A DNA stretch of 52,832 nt from Candidatus Colivicinus equi (GTDB lineage: Bacteria; Bacillota_I; Bacilli_A; Erysipelotrichales; Erysipelotrichaceae), in assembly GCA_018064825.1 (NCBI GenBank), contig JAGHUL010000007.1, positions 1 to 52,832 on the forward strand, given 5' to 3'. Shown here piece after piece: positions 5,456 through 49,859 of the stretch. Every line of letters begins with the position of its first letter. Position 1 is the first letter of the stretch. The notes beneath the pieces are model-generated. The model worked only from the letters and a program-made list of their open reading frames with translations, did no database searches and had not been told where the DNA came from. The translations under genes and the position numbers were made by a program.

Positions 5456-6271
5456 TTAAGCAAAAATACCTAATAAATAACCAACGGCACCACCAACCAT
5501 AGTTAATACCATTAATAGAACAGGTTTTACCTTCTTCTTAGTTAATAGCCAATAACAGAATAATGTGTATGCCAATGGCAATAAACGTGGAACAAGACCG
5601 TTTAAAGTGTCTTGTAAACTAATGACAGTTTCACCAGCTGTAAATGAAATTGCTAAATTAATAGTAACGAACGCAGCTGAGAAACCACCCATGATAATAC
5701 AACCTAAAATAGACGCGTATTCTCTAACTTTATCAATCAAGCCATTAGCTTCGATGCTTGCAACAAATTCAGTACCTTTTTCATAGCCTTTATAGATACC
5801 AACCCAGTTGATAACTTGACCAATAGTAGCCATGATAACAAAGAATAGAATTGCGCCTAATGGACTTGTGTAGTTGCTAGCAACAATTAAGCTAACGCCG
5901 ATGCCAGCAAAGATTGGTCTTAATGTACCGTGATACAAAGTATCACCGATACCAGCTAAAGGACCCATCATAGCTGCCTTAACAGCTGATACAGATTCTT
6001 CAGGAATATCGCCTTCATTAGCGATACGCTCTTCCATAGCCGCAGTAATACCAATAACTGTCTTTGCACATTGTGCTTCAGTTAAGAATATTTCTTGGTG
6101 ACGAGCATAAGCTTTAAATTGATCATCTTCGTTAGGATATAACTTTTCAATGATTGGAACTAATGAAAGAGTAAATCCCATTGACTCAAATTTTTCAGAG
6201 TTACAACCCAAAGTAAACCATTGGCTTTCCCAGAATAATTTGTTTATATCTTTTTTATCTAATTTTGCCAT
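5456..6271 (-). CDS. PTS mannose/fructose/sorbose family IID component
   Basis: The 271-residue protein carries the typical IID start (LFWESQWFTLGCNSEKFESMGF), the AAMMGPLAGIGDTLYHGTLRP signature and C-terminal membrane helices ending in GGAVGYLLGIF. With IIC it forms the membrane channel of mannose-class PTS transporters, and IIB phosphorylates the incoming sugar. It follows IIC after a 10-base gap. The substrate cannot be read from sequence. The order IIB-IIC-IID is complete but no IIA gene lies in the cluster, so IIA must come from elsewhere in the genome. Confidence 0.93.
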   Translation of the reverse strand: MAKLDKKDINKLFWESQWFTLGCNSEKFESMGFTLSLVPIIEKLYPNEDDQFKAYARHQEIFLTEAQCAKTVIGITAAMEERIANEGDIPEESVSAVKAAMMGPLAGIGDTLYHGTLRPIFAGIGVSLIVASNYTSPLGAILFFVIMATIGQVINWVGIYKGYEKGTEFVASIEANGLIDKVREYASILGCIIMGGFSAAFVTINLAISFTAGETVISLQDTLNGLVPRLLPLAYTLFCYWLLTKKKVKPVLLMVLTMVGGAVGYLLGIFA

Positions 6272-33376: not shown

Positions 33377-33433
33377 CCAAGTGGCAATAGCTTTTCTAGT
33401 ACTTTCATTATATTGAACAACGTTTTTATATTG

Positions 33434-33447
33434 TGAAAACGTTTACT
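33434..33447 (+). promoter_or_regulatory. cre-like (CcpA) site upstream of the AMP-ligase fusion gene
   Basis: TGAAAACGTTTACT matches the cre consensus TGWAANCGNTNWCA at every position but the last. Its centre is about 55 bases upstream of the inferred transcription start, a distance at which CcpA activates (as at ackA) rather than represses. Confidence 0.6.
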
Positions 33448-33460
33448 ATTCCTTCAAGTG

Positions 33461-33489
33461 TTAACATAGCCTTTTATCTTCGTTATAAT
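33461..33489 (+). promoter_or_regulatory. Promoter of the AMP-ligase fusion gene (TTAACA-17-TATAAT)
   Basis: TTAACA at 33461-33466, a 17-base spacer and TATAAT at 33484-33489 are followed by only six bases (TTAGTC) before the ATG at 33496, indicating a leaderless mRNA. Confidence 0.8.
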
Positions 33490-33495
33490 TTAGTC

Positions 33496-36087
33496 ATGAA
33501 CAATAAAATTAAATACACAAACTTAGACATGCTTAAGATGTATGCTGAAGCTATCGAAAGAGGCCAAAACAGAAGTTTTGCTTTGTATCAAAGAATTGAT
33601 GGTCGCGTTGAAGAATATACTTACAATGAAGTTCAATTAGAAGCCAGTTACTTAATTCAAAAGTTAGAAAAAGCTGGTTTAAAGAAAGGTGACAGAATTG
33701 CGGTTGTATCTTCTTTACGTCCATGGTGGTTTGCTTTGACTTATGCTTGTTTAATGAATGGTTATATTATGACTTGTATTGATCCAGGTGTTCCTGCAAT
33801 GCAAGTACAAAAGATGATGTTGGATGCTGAAGTAAGAGCTGTCTTCACAACATTAAAAGTAATTCACTTGCCAAAAGAATTAGAAGAACATATTCCAGTA
33901 TTCTCAATTGAATCTGGTTTTCCATATATGAGCAAGTGCCAAGAAATTGACTACTTGTTGGGTGAAACAAAAAGACTTCCTGAAGATACATTCTTTATTC
34001 TTTTCTCATCTGGTACAACAGGTGAAAATAGAAAAGCAGTTTTATTAAAACATTCATCAATCACAACTGCTATTGAATATGGTATGTCAAAAGATTCTGG
34101 TGTATATAGACACAAGCCTGCTTACGTGCCAAACAAAGTCGATTTGATGTTGTTCCCACCATATCATATTGCCGGACTATTAATGGCAACTTATGATTTC
34201 TATAACAATTCTAAAATAATAATGTTAGAAAGACTTACACCAAACGCTTTGATGTCTGCTTTCGCTAATTTAAAACCAGATTGTATTTCTACAGTACCAT
34301 CAATGTTGACATCACTATACAAGAAAATATTGGCTGGTTATTCTAATCGTCCATTATTTAAATTGGCTGTAAATAATTTATTAGGTCTAAGTGGTGTCTT
34401 AAGAAGAACATTTGGATTAAAAGCAGGAAGGTTCCTATTAAAGCCAATAAATAAAAAAGCCTTTGGTGGCAATATGAAGAGTTTCATGATTGGCGCTTCA
34501 CCATTTGATGAAACAGCAAATAAATTCTTCTTAGATATGGGCATCGATGTAATGATGGCCTATGGTTTAACTGAACTTGGTGCTCCGCTTGCGACAACTG
34601 GTCAAGGATATTATCCAGGTACTACAGGTAGAGTAGTAAGACATACAAAAGAAATGGATATTAGGATTGTAAACAAAGATGAATCCGGCAAAGGTGAAGT
34701 TGAAGTTAAATCGCCATATCGTATGATTGGCTATATCAACTATAGAGATAATGAAGGTTGTTATACCAATGATGGATACTTTAAGACAGGTGACTTAGGC
34801 TATTTCGATAGAAAGAAATGTTTAATTATTTGTGGCCGTATTAAAGAGAGTATCGTTTTAAGAAATGGCGAAAAATTATTACCAGAAGAAATCGAAAGTA
34901 AATATCAAGATTTAGATAGTGTTAAAGACTTAGTAGCATTCAAAGTGCCAGGAGAAGGCGGCTGCGACGATTTCTCTATTGCGGTCATCAACGATAAGGT
35001 TAAAGGCATACCAGATGAACCAGTTAAATTAAGAGTCTTTGAACGTGCCGCAAAACTTCCACAGATGTATCGACCAAAAGATGTCTACGTAGTCAAAGAA
35101 TTCCCATATTCTTCATCACATAAAGTTCAACGTTTCCGTTTGACTGATATGGTATTAAATGGACAAGATGCGCCTATAACTGATGCATTAATGATTCCGG
35201 TAGATGAAGACGAAACAACTTCTGCATTAAGAAAAATCTTAGTTGAAGTTGGTGGCAGCCAATGGAAGAATGAAAAATTGACTCAAGGATTATTGTTAAA
35301 CCTTGATTCACTAGCTACTGTTAATCTGTATGTTGCAATACAAGATAAGTGGCAAATAGATTTATTCCAAACAAGCAATCAACCAGAAACATTTGGTGAA
35401 CTATTAGATGTTGTAAAGAATTTTGATGTAATAGAGAAAAATAATAAAAAGAGTATCGACTTATCTCAATATCCACTACCAACAACTAAAGCAAATAAAG
35501 TTGCTTGTAAGCAACTAGAGAAATTAGTAAAGCTTATGTGGAGAGTCAAAGCAACAGGCGTTGAAAACTTCCCAACTGATACTAATTTCATTATTTGTTC
35601 TAATCACCAAACTGATATTGACCCAGCCTTCATCGCAAGTGTCTTACCAGAAGAGATAATTGATAACACATGCTTTGTAGGCAAAGCAGAATTAGTACAA
35701 GATAAGTTCTTTAAACAGTTAGTTATCTCACACAATTTCATTCCAGTAGATAGAACAGGTAATTCAATTCAAACGCTAGATCGTTGCCAAGAATTATTAT
35801 TACAAGGAATGAATATCTTGATCTTCCCAGAAGGAACAAGTGCTCAAAATCACCAACAATTATTCCCACTAAAAGAAGGTTATGCAAGATTAGCTATTCA
35901 TACAAATAGACCAATTGTACCAATACATATAACTGGTGTTGCCCATACTGATAAAGAGATGAAGAACTTCCAACTTCCATCATTAAAAGGAAAGATTCAT
36001 ATCACAGTTGGAAAACCAATCTATCCAGAAAACAGAACAGCTCAAGAACTTAATCAAATCTTAGCTAAAACTATTCAAGAGTTATAA
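33496..36087 (+). CDS. AMP-dependent acyl ligase, acyl carrier and PlsC-type acyltransferase fusion
   Basis: Three activities are joined in 863 residues. An AMP-binding ligase (about 1-555) has FILFSSGTTGENRKAVLL, MAYGLTELG and GYFKTGDLGYFD. A carrier-protein-like segment (about 565-645) has LNLDSLATVNLYVAI, where DSL supplies the phosphopantetheine serine. An acyltransferase (about 690-863) has ICSNHQTDIDP (HX4D) and LIFPEGTSAQNH. This order is the reverse of E. coli Aas and includes an internal carrier, so the protein could activate a free fatty acid, hold it as a thioester and transfer it to a lysophospholipid or other acceptor. A GTG at 33433 is in frame, but the promoter overlaps it, so I start at 33496. 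Confidence 0.87.
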   Translation: MNNKIKYTNLDMLKMYAEAIERGQNRSFALYQRIDGRVEEYTYNEVQLEASYLIQKLEKAGLKKGDRIAVVSSLRPWWFALTYACLMNGYIMTCIDPGVPAMQVQKMMLDAEVRAVFTTLKVIHLPKELEEHIPVFSIESGFPYMSKCQEIDYLLGETKRLPEDTFFILFSSGTTGENRKAVLLKHSSITTAIEYGMSKDSGVYRHKPAYVPNKVDLMLFPPYHIAGLLMATYDFYNNSKIIMLERLTPNALMSAFANLKPDCISTVPSMLTSLYKKILAGYSNRPLFKLAVNNLLGLSGVLRRTFGLKAGRFLLKPINKKAFGGNMKSFMIGASPFDETANKFFLDMGIDVMMAYGLTELGAPLATTGQGYYPGTTGRVVRHTKEMDIRIVNKDESGKGEVEVKSPYRMIGYINYRDNEGCYTNDGYFKTGDLGYFDRKKCLIICGRIKESIVLRNGEKLLPEEIESKYQDLDSVKDLVAFKVPGEGGCDDFSIAVINDKVKGIPDEPVKLRVFERAAKLPQMYRPKDVYVVKEFPYSSSHKVQRFRLTDMVLNGQDAPITDALMIPVDEDETTSALRKILVEVGGSQWKNEKLTQGLLLNLDSLATVNLYVAIQDKWQIDLFQTSNQPETFGELLDVVKNFDVIEKNNKKSIDLSQYPLPTTKANKVACKQLEKLVKLMWRVKATGVENFPTDTNFIICSNHQTDIDPAFIASVLPEEIIDNTCFVGKAELVQDKFFKQLVISHNFIPVDRTGNSIQTLDRCQELLLQGMNILIFPEGTSAQNHQQLFPLKEGYARLAIHTNRPIVPIHITGVAHTDKEMKNFQLPSLKGKIHITVGKPIYPENRTAQELNQILAKTIQEL

Positions 36088-36088
36088 T

Positions 36089-36712
36089 ATGGCAAGAGTA
36101 AATTGGCGTCCCGCAAACTTATTGAATCCTCTACCAGTAGTATTAATAAGTACTACTGATGAAAATGGTAATTCTAATGTTATGACAGCCGCATGGACAG
36201 GAACAATCTGTTCAGATCCTGTCATGGTATCAGTATCCATAAGAAAAAGTAGATACACTCATTCAATAATCGAAAAAACAAAAGAGTTCGTTATCAATTT
36301 ACCAAATGAACAGCTTGCATTATATACCGATTATGTAGGCATCTATTCAGGCATAAAAGTAAATAAGTTAAACCTACCAGGCAAGTATAAAGTCACGCCT
36401 GTAGAAAGCAATAAGGTTAAAGCAATAACAATAGATGAATGCCCTATTGCCCTAGAATGTAAAGTAAAACAAATTCTAGAGTTAGGTTCACATGATATGT
36501 TTATTGCCGAAGTTGTATCCACTTCAATTAATGAAGACTACATCGATAAAGATAATAAACTAAATATTAAAAAGGCTAATCTATTAAGTTATTGCCATGG
36601 CGAATACTACACGCTAGGAAAAAGAGTTGGTAAATTTGGTTTCTCTTCTAAAAAGAAACAAAGAAACAAAAGAACTGATTCAATTAATAAGACAAGAAAC
36701 AATCGTAAATGA
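36089..36712 (+). CDS. Flavin reductase family protein (FMN-binding split barrel)
   Basis: The 207-residue protein matches flavin-reductase-like flavoproteins: NPLPVVLISTTDENGNSNVMTAAWTG, VMVSVSIRKSRYTHSIIEKTKEFVIN and the later IALECKVKQILELGSHDMFIAEVV. It binds FMN and may reduce it or carry electrons. It begins one base after the stop of the acyl ligase fusion, so the two are co-expressed. The C-terminal 25 residues are a lysine/arginine-rich tail that could contact RNA or membrane. Confidence 0.85.
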   Translation: MARVNWRPANLLNPLPVVLISTTDENGNSNVMTAAWTGTICSDPVMVSVSIRKSRYTHSIIEKTKEFVINLPNEQLALYTDYVGIYSGIKVNKLNLPGKYKVTPVESNKVKAITIDECPIALECKVKQILELGSHDMFIAEVVSTSINEDYIDKDNKLNIKKANLLSYCHGEYYTLGKRVGKFGFSSKKKQRNKRTDSINKTRNNRK

Positions 36713-36796: not shown

Positions 36797-39700
36797 CTAT
36801 TCTTCGTTGTCTTGATATGGAATAGCATATCTTTCGACTAAGTGGTAGAAGTCTTCTTCACTCATCAATCCTTTACCAATTGATACATTTACGTACTTAG
36901 TTGGATACTTGTTGAATGTGTCTTCTGTTACAAACTCAGCAACATTCGAGTAATCAAACAATCCATATGTTTCAATATCAGCTTTCATTTTTTCTTCGTT
37001 ATACTTCAAATCATCATCGTATTCGAAGATATTGAACATACCTGTAATACCACCTGGCATTGATAGCATATCATCCATAAAGAAGTTCAAATGATAATCT
37101 GATGGGAATGAGTAACATCCGCTATATTTAGTAGTAACATATGCATTATCTAATGTGACAGCATTTCCGTTTACGTCATAGAAACGATCACCAATATAAT
37201 TCATATAGTCATCTTCGTGAATGTATACATACTTCATTAAATCAAGATCAAAGAATCCGTGTTCATAAATTACTTTCGAAGTCTTTCCATTAGACCATTC
37301 TAAGTTGACAATGTTGTATACTTTCCAACCATCATCTTCTATGAAGTTCACTTTAGCTTCATCTAGTTTACCAGTTTCATGATTGAATGCTAACAATACA
37401 TCATCTTCAGTAATATCTTTAGCAAGTTTAACGGTTCTATCAGCTAGCAAGACTTCAGTATCATCGGTGATGCAACCTCCGCCGCCTCCGCCGCCAGAAT
37501 CTTTCTTTTTAACGGTAACTGTGAATTTAGTTGAACCTGCGTTATAATTGCTAGTTCCAGAAGCGGAAACATTAACCTTGAAAGAGTGTTCACTATCATC
37601 TTGCTTTGAACAAGTGACTTTAACATAATCGCCGTTTATTGAAACTGATATATAGTCATTGCTATCTACCGAGCAATTTAATGTACTTCCTTTCGCTTTG
37701 CCCGAAACATACGAACTTCCACCATTAGTATCCACAGAAATATCAGAAACAGATATATTTTGATCTCCTTTAACCATTTCCCAAGATACTGACTTAGCTG
37801 ATGTAGTTCCATCAGACCATTGAGTACTAGTTGGGTCATCTAAAGTAAATTTTTCAATATGAGTACCAACTTCAGAATAACTTGTTCTAGATGGCGTATA
37901 ATACGTTGTATCATAATTATCAAATACATCATCAGCAGCGTATTGACTACTTCCGTCATATTTAATTGTACGTGCTGCTACTGGAATTTCGATTTTTCTA
38001 ACTGATATGCTCCAAGGAATTACCTTGTTTGTTGTTGATCCATCAGACCACACAGATGTACTTGTGTTATCCAATTTATATTCCGCATTATAGTTTCCAG
38101 CTTTTGAAGCAGATGACTTACGTCCATTACTTGTTATTTCAGTAATATAAGTAGTGTCCACATTGTTGAATGGCCTTTTAGTTGATCTGTCATAGACATA
38201 TGAAGATTGCGCAGGCTCTGGTATTGATACAATGTTTTTAATGCTCCAAGAGATTGTAATATCGCTTGAATTACCAGTTGACCATTCATATACGTTTTGA
38301 TTATTAATCTTAAATGTCGTTACATAATCTCCTCTGTCAGTAGCAGTTGCTCCTGAAAAGCTATTTCCTGAGCCTACTTTTTGAGTAGTAATAGTGACGT
38401 TACTATTGTTTTTATAACTTGGAGAATACTCTAACGTATTTCCTCTACTATTGTAGCTATACAAAAGTTTCGAAACATTTGGATATTCCAATTGAGCTTT
38501 TGTAATTTCCCATTCGATTGTAATCTTGTTTGCTGTTCCATCTGACCAAGTACAACTATCTTTATCTTTAATCTCGAATGTTGCAGAATAATTGCCTTTA
38601 TTTGTACCCGAAATATTAGAAGTTGTTAATAAACTAGTCTTTCCATCCATATATGTCTTGAATGGGGTAATTTGACTTCCTGTTGCAGGAATCTTAGTTT
38701 CACTTAAACTTGGTTTAGCAATCTTTATGCTATTAATCTTCCAATTAACAGTAATGTCAGATTCCGAACCGTCTGGCCATGTGCAATTACCACCTTTTAG
38801 TTTAAATGTTGCAGTGTAATTTCCGGCCTTAGTTGCTTTTACATTCGTTGCTTCAACCTTTGTTGAATCATAGCCACTGAAAGGAGATATTTCATTACCT
38901 GTGAAATCATACGTTGTTTTTGAATAAGTTGGCTCATTAGTAACAGCTTTCTTTATCTTCCAAGTAATTGTCTTATCAGCAGTAGTTCCATCAGCCCATG
39001 TGCAACTGTTTGGATCTTTTAATTGGAATACGGTTGTATAGTCGCCATAAGAATTTCCTGTTCCAGTTCCTTCTTTGATAGTTACCATATTCTTGTTATA
39101 TACAAATGATGGTGTAATAGTACTTCCAGTATAAGTATATTCTTTTACAGCTAGTGATGGATCACTGCTTACTTTTCCTTTGCCTATTGTCCAAGTGACC
39201 TTAGCAGGATCTGTAGTGCCATCAGCCCATTGATAGTTATTCTTTAATGTGAATGTAGCTGTATGTTCTCCAGCAGCAATTGCCTTTTCTCCAGTTACAG
39301 TCCAGCAATCAGAATAACTACTATAATTAAATGTTGCAGTCTTTTCTGTTCCATCATATGTCAAAGTATTTGTTTGCTCTGTTGGTTTAGTAATACTTGC
39401 TCTAGTAATAGACCAATTGAATACTAATGTTTGAATGTTTGTCTTCTTCCAAACAACATTTCCACCCATTGAGTCTTTTATTCTTACTGTTGTTGTATAA
39501 TTGCCAACATCAGCAGCTTTATTTAATGGTGTAGAAGAACCTTTCTTAGTTACAGTCATTTCCATGTATGTAGAATCGAAACCTGTTAGAACCTTATCTT
39601 TTCTATCAGTTCCATCCCATACAATTGATTCTTTACATGAAGGAGCGTCTAGTTCTCTAGGAACGATTTCCCAGCTAACAATTGCTCGTCCATCTGAATC

Positions 39701-41521
39701 TATCTTTGTACCATCTTCCCACTTGAAGTAATCTGAAGCATCTTTTCCTGAGAATAGATCTCTTACAAAATAACTTAAACTATCTAACCAGTCTCTAGTG
39801 ATGACAAGTTCAAACTTAGCACCATAATCACTGCCAACGTTTACACCGACGGTAGAACCATCACCAGAGATAATTTTAGACATTTGAGTATCATAATCAA
39901 AGTTCTTACCAGCATCACCGCTTGATAAACCAGCGCCTGGTCCTGTAAATCCACCAGTATATTCGTATTTCTTAGCAACACCAGCTTTTAGTCTAGGTTG
40001 CTTAATTGTCTTTTCATAAATTCTCCATTTAACTTCTCTACGAGCATTTACATCGCCATCTTCCCAAATGTATGTTTTAGGATCAATAATTTCAAAGAAA
40101 GTTGAGAATAATCCAGGAACATTTGTATTACTTCCAGGAGTTTCTACAATCTTAATGATTCCATCAGAAGCGCCTTCTTCATAAGCAGCTAAACCATAAA
40201 AACCTGAACTAGTATTTGTTGGATTGAAGTTACCAAATGTTGGATTCAATGTCTCAAAATAGTCAAATTCTAGACGAACTGTTTGATAAGGAACCTTTAC
40301 TGGAATCTTATTGATTCGCCAATAAATACGCTTTGGTTCTGTTGAGAAGTTATCTGCCCAACAACATTCATTTGGATTAACTAATTCAAATGTTGCGATA
40401 TATGGAGGATCACCAACAGAAGTATTAGGAACTTCTTGAGGAGTGATTGTTAGTTTGACAAATCCATCATCACTTACACCATCATTATTTGAATCTTTGA
40501 AGTTTATCCATGTAGGAGTTTGTTTTACTCCTGGTTTGTATATCAATCTACCACTTTGAGCAGGAGCAGGAACCGGAGTTCTTCCAACTGGAGTTACTAC
40601 TACCAATATGCTCTTGCCGACAGTGTTGCCATTAGCGTCTGTTGCTTGAATTCTTACTGTAGTTCTTCCTACACCAACTGGAGAAACAACGCCATCTTGT
40701 GTAACAGAAGCAATAGCGGTATCACCAGAAATCCATTTATAACTTTCAGCACCAGATACACTGAATGTAACTTTCTTAGATTCTCCACCTTTAGTTAGAT
40801 ATATTTCAAATTGATCGATTGTGATAGAAATTGAAGAACCAATATTTCCACCTTCTTCACCTGATCCGCTAGCACCATCAGTAGTGGTGTAATCTAAAGT
40901 AACGATATTGACAATAACATCAAAGCCGATATCTTCAGTTAAATTGTTAAGGTCTTCTATCTGCTCAGCTTCGCTTTCGCCAGCTTCACGTAAAATATGA
41001 TTAGTATTAAAAGTTGATGTAAAAGGCAAACTAGCTAATTCGACCTTTTTGCCTTGGTTATATAAAACATTATCTATAGGGAATAAAGATCCTGTGTTAC
41101 TTGTATATGTATATTCGCCACCATATTTAGTGTTGCTATGGTAAAAGATATCATTTCCTTTTACAGCAAATTTACCAGGTAAACTTGCTATCTCTGGGAA
41201 AGTTCTTCTCATGCATCTATCAAAGCTATTAACAAACTCTTCACCTGAAGGAACAGTGGTGATATTTAATCTTCCATCTTCGTATGTTAAAACCGTTGTT
41301 CCACCTTCGTAATCAAGTGGAATTTTTCCATCTTTGTTTGAAACAATTTTAGAAATTAATATTTCTCTTGCTTGCATTGCCTCTGTAACAGTACTATTAA
41401 TGGTTTCTTTTCTAATGTAAGATTTGTAACCAATAATAGAAACAGTTGATAATATCGCAAGAATTGCGATAACAACCATTAATTCTACTAGAGTAAACGC
41501 TTTTTTAATCTTTTTTCCCAT
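36797..41521 (-). CDS. Giant prepilin-like surface protein with Ig-like repeats and C-terminal Hint domain
   Basis: The 1574-residue protein starts with a class III (prepilin) signal, KKIKKA-FTLVELMVVIAILAI; the residue before the cut is Ala8, not the usual Gly. A pilin-like region follows to about 225, then a Big_2-like domain (230-311; SGDTAIASVTQDGVVSPVGVG). Eleven related modules of about 75-100 residues (380-1250) each contain W-x-DG...W-x-I. Gly1343-1349 then lead into Cys1350 and a Hint domain (1350-1574; CITDDTEVLLADRTVKLAKDI, YEHGFFDLD, YHLNFFMDDMLSMPGG). Hint domains cleave at a Gly-Cys or X-Cys bond. AAAGAGG precedes the ATG, and the promoter contains a 20-bp element shared with the operon head at 49852. 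Confidence 0.88.
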   Translation of the reverse strand: MGKKIKKAFTLVELMVVIAILAILSTVSIIGYKSYIRKETINSTVTEAMQAREILISKIVSNKDGKIPLDYEGGTTVLTYEDGRLNITTVPSGEEFVNSFDRCMRRTFPEIASLPGKFAVKGNDIFYHSNTKYGGEYTYTSNTGSLFPIDNVLYNQGKKVELASLPFTSTFNTNHILREAGESEAEQIEDLNNLTEDIGFDVIVNIVTLDYTTTDGASGSGEEGGNIGSSISITIDQFEIYLTKGGESKKVTFSVSGAESYKWISGDTAIASVTQDGVVSPVGVGRTTVRIQATDANGNTVGKSILVVVTPVGRTPVPAPAQSGRLIYKPGVKQTPTWINFKDSNNDGVSDDGFVKLTITPQEVPNTSVGDPPYIATFELVNPNECCWADNFSTEPKRIYWRINKIPVKVPYQTVRLEFDYFETLNPTFGNFNPTNTSSGFYGLAAYEEGASDGIIKIVETPGSNTNVPGLFSTFFEIIDPKTYIWEDGDVNARREVKWRIYEKTIKQPRLKAGVAKKYEYTGGFTGPGAGLSSGDAGKNFDYDTQMSKIISGDGSTVGVNVGSDYGAKFELVITRDWLDSLSYFVRDLFSGKDASDYFKWEDGTKIDSDGRAIVSWEIVPRELDAPSCKESIVWDGTDRKDKVLTGFDSTYMEMTVTKKGSSTPLNKAADVGNYTTTVRIKDSMGGNVVWKKTNIQTLVFNWSITRASITKPTEQTNTLTYDGTEKTATFNYSSYSDCWTVTGEKAIAAGEHTATFTLKNNYQWADGTTDPAKVTWTIGKGKVSSDPSLAVKEYTYTGSTITPSFVYNKNMVTIKEGTGTGNSYGDYTTVFQLKDPNSCTWADGTTADKTITWKIKKAVTNEPTYSKTTYDFTGNEISPFSGYDSTKVEATNVKATKAGNYTATFKLKGGNCTWPDGSESDITVNWKINSIKIAKPSLSETKIPATGSQITPFKTYMDGKTSLLTTSNISGTNKGNYSATFEIKDKDSCTWSDGTANKITIEWEITKAQLEYPNVSKLLYSYNSRGNTLEYSPSYKNNSNVTITTQKVGSGNSFSGATATDRGDYVTTFKINNQNVYEWSTGNSSDITISWSIKNIVSIPEPAQSSYVYDRSTKRPFNNVDTTYITEITSNGRKSSASKAGNYNAEYKLDNTSTSVWSDGSTTNKVIPWSISVRKIEIPVAARTIKYDGSSQYAADDVFDNYDTTYYTPSRTSYSEVGTHIEKFTLDDPTSTQWSDGTTSAKSVSWEMVKGDQNISVSDISVDTNGGSSYVSGKAKGSTLNCSVDSNDYISVSINGDYVKVTCSKQDDSEHSFKVNVSASGTSNYNAGSTKFTVTVKKKDSGGGGGGGCITDDTEVLLADRTVKLAKDITEDDVLLAFNHETGKLDEAKVNFIEDDGWKVYNIVNLEWSNGKTSKVIYEHGFFDLDLMKYVYIHEDDYMNYIGDRFYDVNGNAVTLDNAYVTTKYSGCYSFPSDYHLNFFMDDMLSMPGGITGMFNIFEYDDDLKYNEEKMKADIETYGLFDYSNVAEFVTEDTFNKYPTKYVNVSIGKGLMSEEDFYHLVERYAIPYQDNEE
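37472..37495 (-). other. Codons of the Gly7-Cys junction (predicted Hint cleavage site)
   Basis: Seven glycine codons are followed directly by the codon for Cys1350, the first residue of the Hint domain. In Hedgehog and bacterial Hint proteins this bond undergoes an N-to-S acyl shift, giving a thioester that an outside nucleophile can attack. Cleavage here would remove 225 residues and leave a glycine-ended surface protein. Confidence 0.6.
37772..40549 (-). repeat. Ig-like repeat array in the giant prepilin (about 11 units)
   Basis: Units of about 75-100 residues end with a W-[ASEP]-DG-[TS]-x(4-7)-W-x-I signature. Clear occurrences lie near residues 388, 486, 601, 765, 842, 915, 992, 1080, 1158 and 1235, and a degenerate one near 690. 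Units also share a central K-x-GNYT-x-TF segment. They resemble the MBG/YDG-type beta-sandwich repeats of bacterial adhesins. Confidence 0.8.
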
Positions 41522-41607: not shown

Positions 41608-42093
41608 TTATTTATTTTCGTTATAATCTTTTATCGACATTGGAAGCTCACCGCTATTCCATATAGCTTGGCCTTTTCCGTCTTTTGTTGTGTATATGAT
41701 AGCTTTACCAACAAGATTAAAACTTCCATCTAATTTATTTACTTCATCAAATTCTTCTTTTATTTTTTTAGTAAAAGTCTCTCCACCATCGGCAGTTTCT
41801 AAAGTGCCTGAAAAAACCACTTTTCCTTTAGATAGATCATATCCAAAAGTTAAACCATCACAATTAACTGTTAAGTCCTTCTTACCATCGGTAGATAATA
41901 ATCTTGACAATATGATTTGCTGCGCCTGCTTACATTCAGAAAGCGCATTTGAATTGCTGGCCTTCTTAATAAATGAAGTATAACCGATACCCGATACAAC
42001 CATTAATAAGGCTAATATTGCAGCTACAACTAGCATCTCGCCAAATGTAAATCTATATTTATATCCTTGTTTTTTTGTTCTATTAGTTTTCAC
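41608..42093 (-). CDS. Prepilin-like protein with non-canonical cleavage site, 161 aa
   Basis: The N-terminus has the pilin helix (FTFGEMLVVAAILALLMVVSGIGYTSFIKKA) with Glu at +5, but the residue before Phe is Arg, not Gly, so processing by prepilin peptidase is doubtful. The rest (SNALSECKQAQQIILSRLL, LTFGYDLSKGKVVFSG, GSFNLVGKAIIYTTKDGKGQAIW) parallels the canonical pilin at 42218, a tandem paralogue. The start is GTG, six bases after a TATAAT, with no ribosome binding site, again leaderless. It may be a minor or initiating subunit. Confidence 0.8.
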   Translation of the reverse strand: MKTNRTKKQGYKYRFTFGEMLVVAAILALLMVVSGIGYTSFIKKASNSNALSECKQAQQIILSRLLSTDGKKDLTVNCDGLTFGYDLSKGKVVFSGTLETADGGETFTKKIKEEFDEVNKLDGSFNLVGKAIIYTTKDGKGQAIWNSGELPMSIKDYNENK

Positions 42094-42217: not shown

Positions 42218-42766
42218 TTAACCTTCTACAGATTCCTCTGGCTCGCTAGGAGCTTCAGGTGCTGACCAACCAGAAGGGGCTCCAGCAATAGGAGTATTTG
42301 TAGAAGCCCAAGTTGCATAACCCTTTTTATTTTGAGTTACATACACAATTTCGCCATCCTTAGCTTTTTTTGAAACCAGGAATGAACCAGTAAGATTTGC
42401 GGCATCCGTGAATTTAGCTTTAAAATTTGTGGTAATATCATCGACTGTTGCGCTAGAAGCATCAATACTAATTTTCCCACTTTTCATATCATATCCAAAT
42501 TTAACACCGTCTATAGTAACTGTGCCATCAGATGTTTCTCCAGATGAGCCATTTTTGCTATCTCCGAATGAAATTAATTCTGATAATACTATTTCTTCAG
42601 CTTGTTTACATTCTGTTAAAGCGTTTGAATCGTTTGCTTTGCCAATAAATGAAGTATAACCAACAACTGATACTGTTGCTAATACTGCTAGGATTGCGAT
42701 AACAACTAATAGTTCAACTAATGTGAAACCTTTTTGTTCACGTTTTTCAGAAATTTTCTTTATCAT
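42218..42766 (-). CDS. Type IV pilin, major-type, canonical class III signal
   Basis: The 182-residue protein has the classic prepilin site KREQKG-FTLVELLVVIAILAVLATVSVVGYTSF with Gly before the cut and Glu at +5. The globular part contains ALTECKQAEEIVLSELISFG, VKFGYDMKSGKISIDAS and a Pro/Glu-rich tail. An in-frame GTG at 42778 would include the GGAGG ribosome binding site, so the ATG at 42766 is preferred. It has its own terminator and about 130 bases of upstream intergenic sequence, suiting a strongly expressed subunit. It is probably the main structural pilin. Confidence 0.88.
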   Translation of the reverse strand: MIKKISEKREQKGFTLVELLVVIAILAVLATVSVVGYTSFIGKANDSNALTECKQAEEIVLSELISFGDSKNGSSGETSDGTVTIDGVKFGYDMKSGKISIDASSATVDDITTNFKAKFTDAANLTGSFLVSKKAKDGEIVYVTQNKKGYATWASTNTPIAGAPSGWSAPEAPSEPEESVEG

Positions 42767-42778
42767 AATATCCTCCAC

Positions 42779-42909: not shown

Positions 42910-44580
42910 TTACCTTTCGTTTACCTTGATTTCTTCAATTAAACTTTCGTATTCTTCTATAGACGTTAATCCATTCAAAACTTTCTCTCTCGTGTTATCA
43001 ATAACGGATGGAATATATTCTTTTACTGAATCATGCAACATTTCAGATGTATAGTTTTTAGACATAATAATGTCTCTAACTCTATCGTCGATAGGCAATA
43101 TTTCGAATACGCCTTCACGTCCAGAATAACCGGTGTTCGAACAAATTGGGCATCCAACTGGTTCATATATCTTCTTTGGTTCGTGTATTTGTAACATTTC
43201 CATTTCACCAGGTGTAGTCATATGTTCTCTCTTACACTTTGGACATAGTTTTCTAACAAGTCTTTGAGATATAGAGCATAGTAATGAATCAGATACCATA
43301 TATGGAGGGATTCCCATATCGATTAATCTAGATACAACACCAGCTGCAGAATTAGTATGTAGAGTAGAGAATACTAAGTGACCTGTAATAGCTGCTCTAG
43401 TAGCAATTTGTGCAGTCTCTTCATCACGAATTTCACCAATCATAATAATATTTGGGTCTTGTCTTAAGATTGATCTTAAAACATTAGAGAATGTCAAATT
43501 AGCTTTATTATTTACTTGAACTTGGTTGATGCCATCAATTTGGTTTTCAACTGGGTCTTCGACTGTAACGATGTTTGTATCAGGCTTATTTAAATGTCTC
43601 AAGAAAGCATATAACGACGTAGATTTACCTGAACCTGTAGGTCCTGTCAACATTATTATTCCATGAGGTCTAGAAATAATATTGGTTATTAACTCTCTTT
43701 GCTCATCTGATAGACCTAATAATGACATATCGCTTGAGTGTAGTGACTTATGGAAAATACGAATAACGAGTTTTTCTCCATGGATTGTAGGCATTGTAGA
43801 TACACGGAAATCATATTGTACTCCATCAATTTCTTTAACAATCTTACCATCTTGTGGAAGTCTTCTTTCCGCAATATTGATGTCTGATAAAATCTTAAAT
43901 CTTGCAACTAATGGTTGGAAGATATGTGGTTTTAATTTATTGATAACAACTAGTTTGCCATCTATTCTATATCTAACAATTATTTCTTCTTCAAAAGGTT
44001 CAATATGTATATCTGATGCTTTCCTACTTACAGCATCGTTAATGATAGAATCACACAACGTAATTATTGGAGCACTTGAATCATCATTAACATCACCACC
44101 AACAGTAATATCGGTATTCTCGTCAGCGTAACTAGTTAAGACATCAGTTTGTTTAATCTTGTTTGTCAAATAGTTAATCAAGGTTAACATATTTGATGGT
44201 GTTACAAGAATGTATTTGAATTCTTTGCTAGTATATTGCTTTAATTCGTTGATTGCTTCAATGCACATTGGATTGCATATCGCAAAATATATCTCATCAT
44301 TATATTCGTATAATGGACAATATTTGTTTATGACAATGTGTTCTTTAGGGAATTTAGAAATCAAATCAAAACTAATTTCTGATAATTGAACTTCTCTTTT
44401 TTGTAAGCCTAAGAAAACAGAAAGATGGCCAAACAAAGCGTCTTCTCTCATTATGTTGCTTGTGATATATCTAAAAGCTTCTTCTTTCCCGTTAGCTACT
44501 GCCTCATTAATCTTGGCAATATTTTCATCAGTAATTACATTTTCTTGTTTTAAATAGGTTAAAAATAAATCATTAAACAT
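42910..44580 (-). CDS. pilB: Type IV pilus assembly ATPase PilB/GspE
   Basis: The 556-residue protein has the N1/GspII-like N-terminus, Walker A GPTGSGKSTSLYAF near 317-330, the Asp box DPNIIMIGEIRDEETAQIA, a His box GHLVFSTLHTNSA and the tetracysteine zinc module CPKCKREHM and CPICSNTG. It is the cytoplasmic hexameric motor that extrudes pilins from the membrane with PilC. A strong GGGGGATG ribosome binding site lies before the ATG. There is no PilT retraction ATPase in the locus. Confidence 0.95.
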   Translation of the reverse strand: MFNDLFLTYLKQENVITDENIAKINEAVANGKEEAFRYITSNIMREDALFGHLSVFLGLQKREVQLSEISFDLISKFPKEHIVINKYCPLYEYNDEIYFAICNPMCIEAINELKQYTSKEFKYILVTPSNMLTLINYLTNKIKQTDVLTSYADENTDITVGGDVNDDSSAPIITLCDSIINDAVSRKASDIHIEPFEEEIIVRYRIDGKLVVINKLKPHIFQPLVARFKILSDINIAERRLPQDGKIVKEIDGVQYDFRVSTMPTIHGEKLVIRIFHKSLHSSDMSLLGLSDEQRELITNIISRPHGIIMLTGPTGSGKSTSLYAFLRHLNKPDTNIVTVEDPVENQIDGINQVQVNNKANLTFSNVLRSILRQDPNIIMIGEIRDEETAQIATRAAITGHLVFSTLHTNSAAGVVSRLIDMGIPPYMVSDSLLCSISQRLVRKLCPKCKREHMTTPGEMEMLQIHEPKKIYEPVGCPICSNTGYSGREGVFEILPIDDRVRDIIMSKNYTSEMLHDSVKEYIPSVIDNTREKVLNGLTSIEEYESLIEEIKVNER

Positions 44581-44594
44581 TGCTCATCCCCCTA

Positions 44595-45800
44595 TTAAAT
44601 TTGATCCATTAATTCAATCATTGGAATATAGATAGATAACAATACTACCGCAACTACAGCACCTAATAAGATGATTGTAATTGGTTCTAGTAAAGAAATG
44701 GCTTTATTAATATTTGTATCAACTTGATCATCAAAGAAAACAGTCGTTGAATCCAATACTTCTTCTAAGTTTCCACTCTTCTCACCAACAGATACCATTT
44801 GAACTAACAATGGGTTAAAAACTTTTGCGTTTTGCAATGAAGTGGCAATAGTTTTGCCTCTTTTGATTTCTTCGATAGCAACTTTAAAATGATCAATATA
44901 AATTGAGTTTTGTAATATGTTAATTAAATTGTTGATAGCATCTGTTATGTTCATACCAGATTTCAATAGGATAGAGAAAGCTCTAGAGAATCTAGCTGTA
45001 ATAACTGCTCTATTGATTTTACCAACAATTGGCAAATGTAATGCGAACCAGTCTTTAACTCTTCTTCCTGGAGGAGTATGGAAGAATATTAATAGTACAG
45101 CAACAGTTGAAGCAATTACAATTAGTATCATCTTCATATTGTTTCTAATAAATGCTCCTGTAGCGAATACAATTTTAGATATTGTAGGAATTTCGCCATC
45201 AAATTCCGCAAACATCGATTCAAATTGAGGAAGAATGAAATATGTCATAAATAAGATAACAGCTAAAATTAAAACAACAAGTACTGTTGGATAAGCAAGA
45301 GAAGATCTTGCCTTTAATTTTAACTTTTCATCATTCTCATAATAATCAGCCATTGAAGAGAATACATTATCTAATGTTCCTGATAATTCACCAATTTCAA
45401 CCATGTTGCAGAAGAATTCTGGGAATACATCGCTATGTGATCTAAATGCTGTTGATAATAGATTTCCTGAAACAACCTCGTTATATACGTCATCTAAAAT
45501 TTTCTTCAATCCACTTGAATAGTTTTGAAGTCTTAGAGCATTAAGTGTATCATCAATAGAAATACCTGAATTAAGCATTACAGAAAATTGCCTAAAGAAG
45601 ACAACTATTTCTGATCTCTTTACTGACAATGATAAAGTAAAGAAAGAATTATATTTCTTTACTGGAGCTTCTTTGTAGCTCTCTAAGAAAAGGTTTTGTT
45701 CACTAAGTTTAATCTTTAGTTCAACCTCGTTTTCGACTTGCATGTCGACTTTTCTTTTTTTGCCTCTTTCGTCATAGACGATACACCTGTAATTTGTCAT
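44595..45800 (-). CDS. pilC: Type IV pilus inner-membrane platform protein PilC/GspF
   Basis: Two copies of the T2SSF domain are visible in 401 residues: VVFFRQFSVMLNSGISIDDTLNAL with FPEFFCNMVEIGELSGTLD in the first, and ARFSRAFSILLKSGMNITDAINNL with LLVQMVSVGEKSGNLEEVLD in the second. Three membrane segments are present, near 170, 220 and 375-395. It is the membrane scaffold turned by PilB. It starts 15 bases upstream of the PilB gene. Confidence 0.95.
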   Translation of the reverse strand: MTNYRCIVYDERGKKRKVDMQVENEVELKIKLSEQNLFLESYKEAPVKKYNSFFTLSLSVKRSEIVVFFRQFSVMLNSGISIDDTLNALRLQNYSSGLKKILDDVYNEVVSGNLLSTAFRSHSDVFPEFFCNMVEIGELSGTLDNVFSSMADYYENDEKLKLKARSSLAYPTVLVVLILAVILFMTYFILPQFESMFAEFDGEIPTISKIVFATGAFIRNNMKMILIVIASTVAVLLIFFHTPPGRRVKDWFALHLPIVGKINRAVITARFSRAFSILLKSGMNITDAINNLINILQNSIYIDHFKVAIEEIKRGKTIATSLQNAKVFNPLLVQMVSVGEKSGNLEEVLDSTTVFFDDQVDTNINKAISLLEPITIILLGAVVAVVLLSIYIPMIELMDQI

Positions 45801-45804
45801 ACTT

Positions 45805-46575
45805 CTACCTCAATAACAATCTAATAAAAATGTCCCCAAATATGAATATCATATAAAATCCAATGCAAAGATAAGGACAAAACGCTATCTCATCTTCTCT
45901 TTGGTTTTTACCAAACTTAATCTTTAATAGAGAAATGATTGAACCGGCCAGTGAAGCAATCAAGATTGCTAATATAAGTTCAAACGGTTCAAACACTAAC
46001 CCCATTATTCCTACCAAATAAATATCACCAGAACCAAGCGACTCTTTATTTAACACCTTGTTCATAATAACCTTTAATAACAAGAAGAAAATTACAGCCA
46101 ATAAAATACTGAAGATATAAGGAGTGATAGGATATTTCAAAAAACAAACTCTATATATTAATAGCAGTACACAGCATCCAAATAACGCCCATAAGCAAAC
46201 ATTAAGTACAGTGTGTGTTTTGTAATCGTATCCTGCAATTAATAACATTACCAAACTTACAAGACTAACCAACAGGCATTCAATCGTCAAACCAAATTTA
46301 AGATAAATAAGTAATAACGATATGCCGCCAATTAACTCATAAAAGAAATTAAAAGAACCAATATTCTCATGACACTTAGAACATCTTCCTTTTAGAAACA
46401 AGTAACTAAACACCGGGATATTTTCATACCAGTTAAGTTCATGCCCACAGTGATCACACCTTGAAGAAGGTTTCACAATACTAAGATTTCTAGGAACACG
46501 GTCTATAATTACGCCAAAGAAACTCGCAAATATAGAACCTAAAGCAAAAACATAAATACCAAATAAGACCTTCAT
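45805..46575 (-). CDS. pilD: Prepilin peptidase (PilD/GspO)
   Basis: The 256-residue membrane protein has the N-terminal zinc/methylase module (RCDHCGHELNWYENIPVFSYLFLKGRC...C) and the two catalytic aspartates in AGYDYKTHTVLN and LGSGDIYLVGIMGL (GxGD). It cleaves class III signals and N-methylates pilins. All prepilins in this locus are its likely substrates, although two have unusual -1 residues. It starts right after the 63-residue protein and precedes PilC. Confidence 0.95.
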   Translation of the reverse strand: MKVLFGIYVFALGSIFASFFGVIIDRVPRNLSIVKPSSRCDHCGHELNWYENIPVFSYLFLKGRCSKCHENIGSFNFFYELIGGISLLLIYLKFGLTIECLLVSLVSLVMLLIAGYDYKTHTVLNVCLWALFGCCVLLLIYRVCFLKYPITPYIFSILLAVIFFLLLKVIMNKVLNKESLGSGDIYLVGIMGLVFEPFELILAILIASLAGSIISLLKIKFGKNQREDEIAFCPYLCIGFYMIFIFGDIFIRLLLR

Positions 46576-46767
46576 TTATTCACCAGTATCTAAATCTACT
46601 GGAGCAGTCTTCACTACTCTATATAACTCTTTCTTTCTTGAAAATACCGCAAGATTATAGTTTCCAATAACAATGAAAGTAGTCGAAATTATAATAGCAA
46701 TAGCTGTACAAACTATAAATACAACGATTAATGATGTACCTTTTTGACTTTTTAATTTCTTATTCAT
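46576..46767 (-). CDS. Short prepilin-like membrane protein, 63 aa
   Basis: KSQKG is followed by TSLIVVFIVCTAIAIIISTTFIVIGNY, a hydrophobic helix with a Gly in the pre-cleavage position but no Glu at +5, as in PilX-like minor pilins. A short basic tail with an acidic end follows. The ATG at 46767 has GGAGGAG nine bases upstream; the alternative ATG at 46776 is too close. It overlaps the end of the DPT-repeat prepilin gene by 8 bases. A minor pilin or assembly factor is likely. Confidence 0.68.
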   Translation of the reverse strand: MNKKLKSQKGTSLIVVFIVCTAIAIIISTTFIVIGNYNLAVFSRKKELYRVVKTAPVDLDTGE

Positions 46768-47524
46768 TTGTAACATCTCCTCCTTCCTCAGGAATAGGGT
46801 CTGTTGGATCTGGCTCCTCAGGTTCTACTGGATCAGTAGGGTCAGTTGGTTCGGTTGGATCGGTTGGATCTGTAGGATCTGTTGGATCGGTTGGATCAGT
46901 AGGGTCAGTTGGATCAGTAGGGTCAGTTGGATCGGTTGGATCTTTTCCTTCTCCACCTTCATCATCCTTTTCGTCCTCATCATCATCTATTTCAACTAAT
47001 ATTGCTCTAATACCATAGTTATTTTCTTGAACGGCATCATAATAACTAATGTCACCAGCTTCAGATGAAGAAAGGCTTTTCCCAAAATCCAAATTCTTTA
47101 TTACGTATCTTGCGTCCTTGAAATCAAATGTTCCATCTTCCAATTCAATATAAGACGCATCTTTGACACAAAGGATAGATAAAATCAAATTATCATCTTC
47201 GTCATAGCGATATCTAAGTTCATATGCATGATCACTAGCTGTTGAATTTACCAATGTGTAATACTTATCATATTTTTGTATATTTTCGGAACTATATTTT
47301 CCACCAAAGTATTCTTGTGCCCAATAATCTTTGCCATAGTAATCATAGAATTTATCAATATCATAGGCTATAGATTCAAGATTAATATATTCTTCAGTTC
47401 TAGTTCCTAAAGAAGAGAAAGATTTATACGCTGAAAAAGAAGCAGTCATGATAATCATAAAGACCGTCATCGCTATGACTGTTTCTACTAACATTTCGCC
47501 TTTTTTTACTTTCTTGATATTCAT
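46760..47524 (-). CDS. Prepilin-like protein with a Pro-Thr-Asp repeat tail
   Basis: The class III signal KKVKKG-EMLVETVIAMTVFMIIM has Gly before the cut and Glu at +5. About 165 residues of pilin-like globular sequence follow, then an acidic stretch (EIDDDEDEKDDEGG) and nine uninterrupted Asp-Pro-Thr triplets with further variants (EPT, DPV, EPEEP). The tail is rigid and negatively charged, like cell-wall-spanning or spacer segments of surface proteins. It overlaps the PilM-like gene by one base. Confidence 0.8.
   Translation of the reverse strand: MNIKKVKKGEMLVETVIAMTVFMIIMTASFSAYKSFSSLGTRTEEYINLESIAYDIDKFYDYYGKDYWAQEYFGGKYSSENIQKYDKYYTLVNSTASDHAYELRYRYDEDDNLILSILCVKDASYIELEDGTFDFKDARYVIKNLDFGKSLSSSEAGDISYYDAVQENNYGIRAILVEIDDDEDEKDDEGGEGKDPTDPTDPTDPTDPTDPTDPTDPTDPTDPTEPTDPTDPVEPEEPDPTDPIPEEGGDVTNE
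46838..46942 (-). repeat. 9-bp tandem repeat coding Asp-Pro-Thr
   Basis: GATCC[ATC]AC[ATC] units (GAC CCT ACT variants included) repeat head to tail, with synonymous third-base differences between units. The array is in frame with the prepilin tail, so changes in copy number would lengthen or shorten the tail without a frameshift. Confidence 0.85.
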
Positions 47525-48273
47525 TATTCTCCTATAATAAATGGCCTTACTGTAATGTCGATACCATCGAGACCTGCTATCTCTTTGTTTGCAATTACAG
47601 TTTTTATGTCAACCTTCTCAATTTCAAACACATGTCTGTCAATGACTGAAGAAATATTCATACGTATATTTTCAATTGTATTCTCAAATGAAGAATAAGC
47701 ACTTAATACACCATTGATAGAAAGCACTAGTGACATAACACCTTTTTCTTCATAAAAATAAGCATAAGTGTTTGTTTCGCATTTTGAAGCATTAAATAAA
47801 TAATTGTAGTAATAATCAAAATCAATCTTATTAAAACCTAATGATTCTACTAATTTATTGAAAAATTCAATGTAACGTTTTTCTAACATAAAGTCATAAT
47901 ATACTCTAGCATTGCCTGAAACACATTCAGTTGTTTTAACATCATATGAATCATGGTTAGGTACTTTATTAGCTAACTCTGTCTCGTACAATTTTCTAGC
48001 TTTCTTATCATTAATATTTGGAACTTGAGTAGTAACTTTAAAAGATTGAGAGCAATTTAGAAGGAATAAAGCACTATTTCTATTTGCTTCTTTAGACTTT
48101 AAAAACTCATCAACTTTGTTGTATACATCACTATAATTTGGAAGCCCATTTACTAGTGAAGATGCTTCGAATTCAATAGCACCTTTGTTTATTAATCTAT
48201 CTTCAGAAAATACCTTTACTAAAAGATATGGTTTACCTACATTGTTAAATTGAAATATTACATCACGCTCCAT
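47524..48273 (-). CDS. Putative PilM-like pilus assembly protein
   Basis: The 249-residue soluble protein lies between prepilin genes. Its middle, QVPNINDKKARKLYETELANKVPNHDSY, then YYDFMLEKRYIEFFNKLVESLGFNKI, follows the PilM-like pattern (Q-x-P, a helix over E-L, P, then an I-E-x-x-x-x-L-x-x-L-G-F helix). Canonical nucleotide-binding motifs of PilM are not clear, so this is a divergent or inactive relative. No PilN or PilO is seen. Membership in the pilus operon is firm; the family call is tentative. Confidence 0.6.
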   Translation of the reverse strand: MERDVIFQFNNVGKPYLLVKVFSEDRLINKGAIEFEASSLVNGLPNYSDVYNKVDEFLKSKEANRNSALFLLNCSQSFKVTTQVPNINDKKARKLYETELANKVPNHDSYDVKTTECVSGNARVYYDFMLEKRYIEFFNKLVESLGFNKIDFDYYYNYLFNASKCETNTYAYFYEEKGVMSLVLSINGVLSAYSSFENTIENIRMNISSVIDRHVFEIEKVDIKTVIANKEIAGLDGIDITVRPFIIGE

Positions 48274-48283: not shown

Positions 48284-49840
48284 TTATTCGTAATTATAAA
48301 TCTCTGGGAAATACTTATAATATATGCCTACAACAAACTCAGTTGTTTGAACTGGTAAATTCTCTGTATCTGATTTTTCTGGTTTTTTATGATAATTAAT
48401 TTTACATTTAACGGTATATACTTCTTTACTTACATAAGTATACTTAAGCTCTTCATCAATATGATTTTCTATCAAACTTTCGCATTCTGTTAAATCTTCT
48501 GAGAATCTTGCTTTGTATTTATCAACATCACCTGATTCAGGAAAATCAGTTACTATTAATTGATAATCATCACTGACTTTATCGCCATTAAGATACCAGC
48601 CTTCAAAAGCATATGAGAAATGTGTTCCCTTTCCTAGATCTTCATAATCCTCAGGATTAAGAATGTCATCTCCTTCTTTAGGGTCTTTTCTCTTAGGCCT
48701 TACAACTTCAATATAATCATCTTCGTCAATCTCTTCTTCATCGTCTTCATCCATCTTGCCATCTTCATCTAGATCTTGACCAACGAATACGCATTCTTTT
48801 GCTTCAAGGATTGCATAATTATTAACACGATCAACAGTACTTACAAAGGCAACGCCATGATCTGGGGCAGCTGATACTGCCTTAATACCATATGTAGGCA
48901 TTGTTTTAGCATCGCTTACTAATGAGAAGTTAGATTCTTTAAATTCATCGGTATTACCAAATTCCTCAATTCCTTGTTCCTCAGCACATCTAGGACAAAT
49001 ATCTGGAGCGACATCAGCATGTGCCTCATATCCACATTCATCACATTTCCATAGTTTTTGAAGAATAAAAGTATCTGTATCAATAGATAAAGATATATCT
49101 AATACATCATAAGGTAGATTCTTGAATATTAATGTGCCTGGTGTTTCTTCGCCAGTATTATCATTAACTGTTATGTCAGCTGCATCTCTAAAGATTCTAA
49201 GTTCACCAGTATCAGGATCATAAGTAAATAAGTTATCAAATAAATCTTTTCTTTTATAACTATCTGAATAATATAAGTTTGCACCAATTATTTGTTGTTC
49301 TGGCGCAAGGTTCTCTATACCTCTTTCGTCTTTTTCTTCGACAATATCATGTAGCAATATTTCGTTACCTTCACTATCAACTAAGAAGAAAGGTAATCCT
49401 TCACGATATTCTGGCATTGGGAAAGCAACTAATGTTTGCTCATTTATTGTTTTAACTGGCTCGCCATCATCGTCGACTACTAATATTTTACCTAGATTCT
49501 TTATCCAATCCTGGTCGCCAATATATGTAGGTCTAACTGAACTAATTAAATAGAATTTTCCATCATATAAATATAGAGCGTAGTCATTCTGTTCGACTTT
49601 ATCAGTATCTGCAGATAGATAATATAGTCCTGTTCTTCTAGAGACGATATTATCACCATTATTAGTGATATAGTCTCTAATTGACATGATATTTAGTTCT
49701 TTCTTTGAATCTTTAACCGTATTAGTATTAACGGTTCTAAACATATAAAAAGAAGTACCTAAACCAATAAGCAACATTGTTGCAATACACATTGCGACTA
49801 AAGTCTCAATTAAAGATAATCCTCTTTTACTCTTTTCCAT
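48284..49840 (-). CDS. Large prepilin-like protein with zinc ribbon and acidic loop, first gene of the pilus operon
   Basis: The signal KSKRG-LSLIETLVAMCIATMLLIGL has Gly before the cut and Glu at +5. The 518-residue protein has an unusual inserted zinc-ribbon (KCDECGYEAHADVAPDICPRC, about 265-285), an acidic EF-hand-like run (DLDEDGKMDEDDEEEIDEDD) and near the C-terminus an InlB/B-repeat-like FSYAFEGWYLNGDKVSDDYQ. It could sit at a pilus tip and bind metal. A GTG four codons upstream (49852) is an alternative start; no ribosome binding site precedes either. Confidence 0.78.
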   Translation of the reverse strand: MEKSKRGLSLIETLVAMCIATMLLIGLGTSFYMFRTVNTNTVKDSKKELNIMSIRDYITNNGDNIVSRRTGLYYLSADTDKVEQNDYALYLYDGKFYLISSVRPTYIGDQDWIKNLGKILVVDDDGEPVKTINEQTLVAFPMPEYREGLPFFLVDSEGNEILLHDIVEEKDERGIENLAPEQQIIGANLYYSDSYKRKDLFDNLFTYDPDTGELRIFRDAADITVNDNTGEETPGTLIFKNLPYDVLDISLSIDTDTFILQKLWKCDECGYEAHADVAPDICPRCAEEQGIEEFGNTDEFKESNFSLVSDAKTMPTYGIKAVSAAPDHGVAFVSTVDRVNNYAILEAKECVFVGQDLDEDGKMDEDDEEEIDEDDYIEVVRPKRKDPKEGDDILNPEDYEDLGKGTHFSYAFEGWYLNGDKVSDDYQLIVTDFPESGDVDKYKARFSEDLTECESLIENHIDEELKYTYVSKEVYTVKCKINYHKKPEKSDTENLPVQTTEFVVGIYYKYFPEIYNYE

Positions 49841-49859
49841 AACAAAAAACACTATTTGA

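Follow-up and report, generated by a model that had tools for sequence, protein, structure and literature searches.

Hedgehog autoprocessing involves transfer to a lipid, and Asp46 of Hedgehog activates the sterol nucleophile. The BIL2 domain of Tetrahymena sits in a ubiquitin-like polyprotein. In the Hint superfamily, Thr B:7 and Asp F:4 are common but not obligatory. The thioester-domain adhesins of Gram-positive bacteria have an internal thioester in another fold and do not depend on a Hint-type acyl shift. Modular type IV pilins have been described with architectures that include S74 and M26 peptidase modules, and the most extreme case quoted has 860 residues and 12 repeats (Raynaud et al. 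2021, PMC8179133). In the literature searched, no publication connects native prepilins with Hint or intein domains.

The window, that is, the whole analysed stretch of 52,832 nucleotides (contig JAGHUL010000007.1 of Candidatus Colivicinus equi), contains a gene in which a known pilin design is joined to this known fold, in a Hint subfamily unnamed by the searched libraries. The unit of the Hint domain and a C-terminal helical extension, 225 residues long in the giant pilin, is called HintX below. The features of the gene and its operon are the following.

36797..41521, minus strand: giant prepilin-HintX gene, 1574 aa (ORF call and translation)
41048..41521, minus strand: type IV prepilin signal and pilin domain, residues 1-158 (Pfam N_methyl, E 6.4e-7; BLAST to the adjoining pilins)
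40586..40840, minus strand: BIG_2-like module, about residues 228-312 (by eye; no Pfam match)
37763..40564, minus strand: eleven copies of a ~78-aa W-x-DG repeat, some divergent, about residues 320-1253 (repeat HMM)
37496..37762, minus strand: last beta-type module ahead of the linker, about residues 1254-1342 (by eye; no family match)
37475..37495, minus strand: linker of seven glycines, residues 1343-1349 (sequence)
37046..37474, minus strand: Hint domain, residues 1350-1492 (PDB profile match; AF2 model; structure superposition)
37472-37474 and 37259-37261, minus strand: codons of Cys1350 and His1421, respectively, inside the Hint domain
36800..37045, minus strand: conserved C-terminal helical extension, residues 1493-1574 (alignment; AF2)
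41608..42093, minus strand: pilin, 161 aa (BLAST to the giant pilin)
42218..42778, minus strand: pilin, 186 aa, probably the major pilin (Pfam N_methyl, E 7.9e-10)
42910..44580, minus strand: PilB-type assembly ATPase (T2SSE, E 1.4e-132)
44595..45800, minus strand: PilC-type platform protein (T2SSF, E 7.1e-57)
45805..46575, minus strand: PilD-type prepilin peptidase (A24_N_bact, E 1.6e-28; Peptidase_A24, E 2.4e-8)
46760..47524, minus strand: probable minor pilin, 254 aa (N-terminal sequence; weak ComGE and N_methyl matches)
47524..48273, minus strand: possible PilM-like protein, 249 aa (position and sequence; no family match)
48284..49852, minus strand: probable minor prepilin, 522 aa (PRK10557, prepilin peptidase-dependent protein, E 1.1e-4, below its cut-off)

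The class III prepilin signal proposed in the earlier note is borne out. It reads MGKKIKKA followed by FTLVELMVVIAILAIL, with Ala at position -1 where Gly is expected. N_methyl, matched at residues 5-27, is the sole Pfam family called on the giant pilin. Residues 3-158 are homologous to both adjoining pilins (E 7.6e-21 for 42218-42778 and 1.1e-17 for 41608-42093). The long middle part had been read as eleven Ig-like modules. The number holds for the ~78-aa repeat, as an HMM built from the clear copies has eleven matches with i-Evalues from 2e-34 to 0.2, and two further modules flank the array. However, the Ig assignment is called by no family library searched.

Homologues of PilB, PilC and PilD and several pilins are encoded upstream in the same direction, and thus the giant gene is the last one of a type IV pilus operon. 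The neighbouring gene at 36089-36712 is convergent, and no downstream gene has the same direction. The sequence features of modular type IV pilins are present: the class III signal and pilin domain, the extra non-pilin module, and the pilB, pilC and pilD homologues in the operon. The protein is best explained as a minor pilin, large and modular, in a type IV pilus of the Gram-positive type. By analogy with known modular pilins only, it probably sits at or near the filament tip.

Three further observations concern this region. The 522-aa minor prepilin contains a rubredoxin-like zinc ribbon at residues 266-294 (NF045720 and RUBY_RBDX, both below cut-off), and the 254-aa minor pilin ends in a tail of TDP repeats. 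The ORF at 33433-36087 fuses an acyl-CoA-ligase-like part with a 1-acylglycerol-3-phosphate acyltransferase-like part.

The best matches of PilB inside the genus have 36-39% identity, which makes this pilus operon an unusual one there. The 35 other genomes of the genus yielded no orthologue of the giant pilin (E 1e-6), so the gene looks like an accessory one. PilT was not found beside pilB, nor clearly elsewhere in the window genome; the one further T2SSE match above cut-off is a 328-aa ORF on another contig. Several members of the genus have two adjoining T2SSE genes, the second one lying beside pilB. Misbinning of the contig was considered, as the contamination of the assembly is 5.43%, and rejected: the PFP gene is 84-97% identical to those of genus and family members.

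As a single sequence, the Hint domain of the giant pilin has no match in Pfam, even at E 10, nor in NCBIfam or PHROGs. However, PF01079 (Hint) is matched by 15 of its 19 relatives in alignment A2 (E up to 1, the best being 4.7e-7). The profile of these 19 sequences finds Tetrahymena BIL2 in PDB with E 1.8e-9, and the C. thermocellum BIL and Drosophila Hedgehog both at about 2e-3. The AlphaFold (AF2) model of HintX has mean pLDDT 94.7 and pTM 0.90. When its residues 1-143 are superposed on Hint structures (VIA), Z is 19.0 for 6y75, 18.0 for 1at0 and 6tyy, 17.5 for the C. thermocellum BIL 2lwy, which we take to be a type A domain, and 14-19 over 50 Hint entries. Thus the modelled residues 1350-1492 are confirmed as a Hint fold, the match being well beyond chance. 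The start of the domain at Cys1350, directly after seven glycines, therefore stands as first described, whereas its extent does not: the fold reaches residue 1492, and the last ~82 residues form a helical extension.

Residues 1493-1574 are kept in the full-length members of the alignment. The extension is one conserved family in all carriers, with no variable tip. Modelled alone (AF2), it has pLDDT 84.2 and no PDB match at E under 1. None of the family libraries searched contains a model for the Hint-plus-extension unit. The Hint protein A0A3G5A239 of Gaeavirus (BFVD) can be aligned to almost all of the HintX model, over 218 columns (TM 0.74), which suggests that the combination of Hint and helical extension may occur also in giant viruses.

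The conservation of candidate catalytic residues was considered in an alignment of 44 full-length HintX members. Overall identity is low, and the median end branch is 0.67 changes per column long. Cys1 (Cys1350) is invariant, and the block B histidine (B:10, residue 72 of the domain, His1421) is kept in 43 members, so both residues named in the earlier note occupy catalytic Hint positions. In the ungapped profile alignment to Hedgehog 1at0 (residues 1-69), Cys1 falls on the Hedgehog cysteine. It is the only conserved cysteine of HintX and thus is not kept for a disulfide bond. Other Hint residues are missing. At position 69 (Thr B:7), threonine occurs in one member of 44, and the giant pilin has Ile1418. 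The conserved His/Asp pair, named earlier as a point at which the assignment could fail, is present as to the histidine, whereas Asp F:4 is replaced by Ser1471, as read from the block F alignment; this position, 122 of HintX, is occupied by Ser in 24 members, Thr in 6, Gly in 3 and Cys in 3. Because of these two losses, catalysis could be slow or lost. The His-Asn of block G is also missing: positions 138-143 read SMPGGI, and there is no conserved Asn there. This implies that neither splicing nor cleavage behind the domain takes place. Thus HintX retains the core of what the first step needs, without what splicing requires, and is predicted to be reactive.

An acidic residue at the site of Hedgehog D46 was considered as a hallmark of the whole family and rejected, as it is kept in 18 of the 44 members. 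The same profile alignment places Glu46 of the giant pilin and Asp or Glu of its nearest relatives at this site, and thus it is a lead for this branch only.

The glycine end had been considered as a feature of the junction. This does not extend to the family, as the residue at -1 is Gly in 14 members of 44 and Ser in 11. Together Gly or Ser occupy position -1 in 25/44 (57%) and position -2 in 20/44 (45%), compared with about 7-34% at positions -3 to -20. This enrichment suits a predicted exposed scissile bond. A junction of small residues is preferred, whereas a glycine run is not required and is not conserved. A GGGG-Cys junction was seen in two contigs of a viral collection (IMG/VR; loci L027 and L028), where HintX ends an 822-aa protein with no signal peptide.

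HintX relatives were found in three loci of two other genomes of the same genus, in 19 loci of named genomes, in 18 of 392 genomes sampled across the phylum (E 1e-8, the window genome counted) and in 25 of 395 genomes of the class (E 1e-15). In IMG/VR, the single-sequence query found no relative, and the alignment query found 25 loci, most of them matching the N-terminal Hint part only. Phage records yielded no match; plasmid records yielded two partial ones, which are Streptomyces polymorphic-toxin HINT proteins. In most carriers HintX is C-terminal, and it is joined to many unlike N-terminal parts. Among the N-termini of the 45 other readable carriers, a simple classifier assigned 31 to signal/TM, 8 to lipobox and 2 to prepilin, and 4 had none of these. 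With the giant pilin counted, prepilins make 3 of 46. Near-duplicates occur in the list, and the N-termini of L009 and L085 resemble plain signal or TM segments, so the lipobox set represents at least five distinct proteins. HintX caps dozens of proteins, mostly from Bacillota, that are predicted to be secreted proteins, lipoproteins or pilins. Most carriers are predicted to be bound to the cell through the N-terminus, with HintX at the far end.

Some carriers depart from the common pattern. On a contig titled Bacteroidales (L020), two distinct HintX lipobox proteins, of 474 and 480 aa, are encoded at a short distance from each other. At L019 5662-6660 and L021 3-1034, HintX is found on proteins of 331-340 aa that have no evident signal peptide and have a KxELEII-xx-NEDVxxTS-like motif in common at the N-terminus.

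A search for other prepilin-Hint fusions, proposed in the earlier note, was made and produced two more genes, in 'Mageeibacillus sp. UBA1243' (L007, 1487 aa) and 'uncultured Ruminococcus sp. RUG12790' (L008, 1959 aa). Both genomes have PilB homologues. The loci are orthologous and lie upstream of an apparent tgt gene. From the upstream flank to about codon 690, the DNA of the two loci is 80.8% identical, and the middles hardly align, whereas the HintX regions have one difference in 663 nt. In both loci, a block of 99.3% identity opens at position 5998, 3 nt ahead of the Cys codon, and continues to 180 nt past the stop. The edge of the module thus coincides with the predicted scissile bond, whether by recombination or by exchange of the middle. 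A second large prepilin (658 aa) is encoded at L007 196-2172, directly upstream of the prepilin-HintX gene.

In the tree of 44 rows, the giant pilin groups with the non-pilin carriers L006 and L005 (98/71 and 86/70), and L007 groups with the non-pilin L010 (97/94). A tree in which the giant pilin and L007 are constrained together is disfavoured (AU p 0.019, in a 16-row set picked after the first tree). As follows from both, prepilins probably took up HintX on at least two separate occasions; the support is moderate.

The likeliest chemistry, judged from the sequence, is the one proposed initially, cleavage of the X-Cys bond through an N-S acyl shift. The shift at Gly1349-Cys1350 most likely removes or exchanges the HintX tail. 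After export and prepilin processing, the stalk would display HintX at its distal end. Cys1350, aided by His1421, would convert the Gly1349-Cys1350 peptide bond into a thioester, which could be resolved by water, a small thiol or an amine. The products would be a released HintX and a pilin whose last residue is Gly1349, its carboxyl end being free or modified. By analogy only with the post-Hint region of Hedgehog, the extension probably has a role in nucleophile selection or in timing; it could instead be a binding or structural domain. Whatever its purpose, active Cys1350-dependent processing of the giant pilin is rather likely. As to purpose, release of a cap, or transfer to an outside nucleophile, suits the geometry of the carriers better than C-terminal anchoring.

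One possibility is that HintX is a folding or trafficking cap at the C-terminus, like S74 peptidase modules, and is shed after the stalk has emerged. The terminal position in nearly all carriers agrees with this, and S74-type peptidase modules are reported from modular pilins (PMC8179133). However, the clients are mutually unrelated, which makes client-specific help in folding unlikely, and we regard this explanation as possible but somewhat doubtful.

HintX could also act as a covalent harpoon, handing the glycine end of the pilin to a nucleophile on a neighbouring cell, a host surface or the matrix. Such a role would fit its distal place on proteins already anchored by the N-terminus, lipobox proteins and pilins included, the conserved extension standing where Hedgehog has its adduct-recognition region, and the acid at the D46 position in the giant pilin and its nearest relatives. 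Covalent thioester adhesins of the Gram-positive surface are known (PMC4450167). However, most members lack the acid, and the fold search with the extension, which gave no PDB match at all, detects no relation to the Hedgehog region. This reading is unlikely. Still more should be doubted its wider form, in which the C-terminal glycine is passed to an extracellular nucleophile at the pilus tip, so that type IV pili would attach covalently without a sortase, and a wide range of HintX surface proteins of Bacillota would do the same.

Alternatively, HintX may be a catalytically dead binding module with the fold retained. The losses of Thr B:7 and Asp F:4 are consistent with this. However, after loss of the chemistry, an invariant Cys1 and a nearly invariant His72 would not be expected in sequences that have diverged so far, and the explanation is improbable.

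The earlier note suggested that the glycine end anchors the giant pilin to its own cell wall or lipid without a sortase. The Hedgehog transfer to lipid is a precedent, and the window genome has no PF04203 sortase in a search that was positive in three named genomes as a control; this is compatible with the suggestion rather than an argument for it. However, pilins are already held in the filament by the N-terminal helix, and the lipobox proteins capped by HintX are presumably lipid-anchored at the N-terminus, so C-terminal anchoring would be redundant for both. Moreover, the L007 and L008 genomes have PF04203 sortases along with prepilin-HintX genes, which argues against a general replacement of sortase. 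We consider this suggestion very improbable. Finally, although bacteria commonly have Hint peptidases just ahead of a toxin domain (PMC3482391), it is barely conceivable that the last 82 residues are the toxin of a polymorphic toxin with a pre-toxin Hint, as the extension is conserved in all carriers instead of being a variable tip, and no gene of the same direction follows.

Cys1350-dependent processing thus remains the preferred explanation. The module boundary, the invariant cysteine and the repeated fusion to prepilins make this a real, testable case, in which activity and purpose are predicted. If HintX is active, type IV pili gain self-processing and possibly covalent transfer, and one processing module is shared by dozens of large surface proteins from uncultured Bacillota that are not otherwise related.

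The giant pilin shares with the modular type IV pilins (PMC8179133; S. sanguinis PilB and PilC) the class III signal, the short pilin domain, the C-terminal module and the monoderm pilus operon. It differs in its size of 1574 aa, with about 13 modules added ahead of the tail, and in ending with Hint, a term absent from the main text of PMC8179133. With the type B bacterial intein-like domains (PMC4031507), HintX has in common the Hint fold, Cys1, the block B histidine and the absence of the block G His-Asn; unlike them, it has the conserved 82-residue helical extension, forms the extreme C-terminus of its host and has lost Thr B:7. The variable toxin and adjoining immunity gene of polymorphic toxins with pre-toxin Hint contrast with the conserved extension and the convergent neighbour here.

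The C-terminal autoprocessing domain of Hedgehog (1at0, 6tyy) has the same fold (Z 18.0), with Cys1 and His72 at the same positions and an extra region after Hint, and in both the first splicing step alone is possible. However, HintX is only 11-13% identical to it and has lost Thr69, the C-terminal regions have no detected relation, a pilin stands in place of the signalling domain, and the Hedge domain is absent, as Pfam finds N_methyl only. The best structural and profile match is BIL2 of Tetrahymena BUBL (6y75, 6tmm; Z 19.0, E 1.8e-9), which has 14% identity and, according to the entry title, ends in Asn143. The Gaeavirus protein A0A3G5A239 is 19% identical and belongs to a giant virus; judging by its 218 aligned columns, both the Hint domain and the extension of HintX seem to be covered. 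The Pfam scan of the giant pilin, which was not a dedicated TED search, gave no TED match. With the thioester-domain adhesins of Gram-positive bacteria (PMC4450167), HintX may have in common a thioester chemistry located distally on a surface protein.
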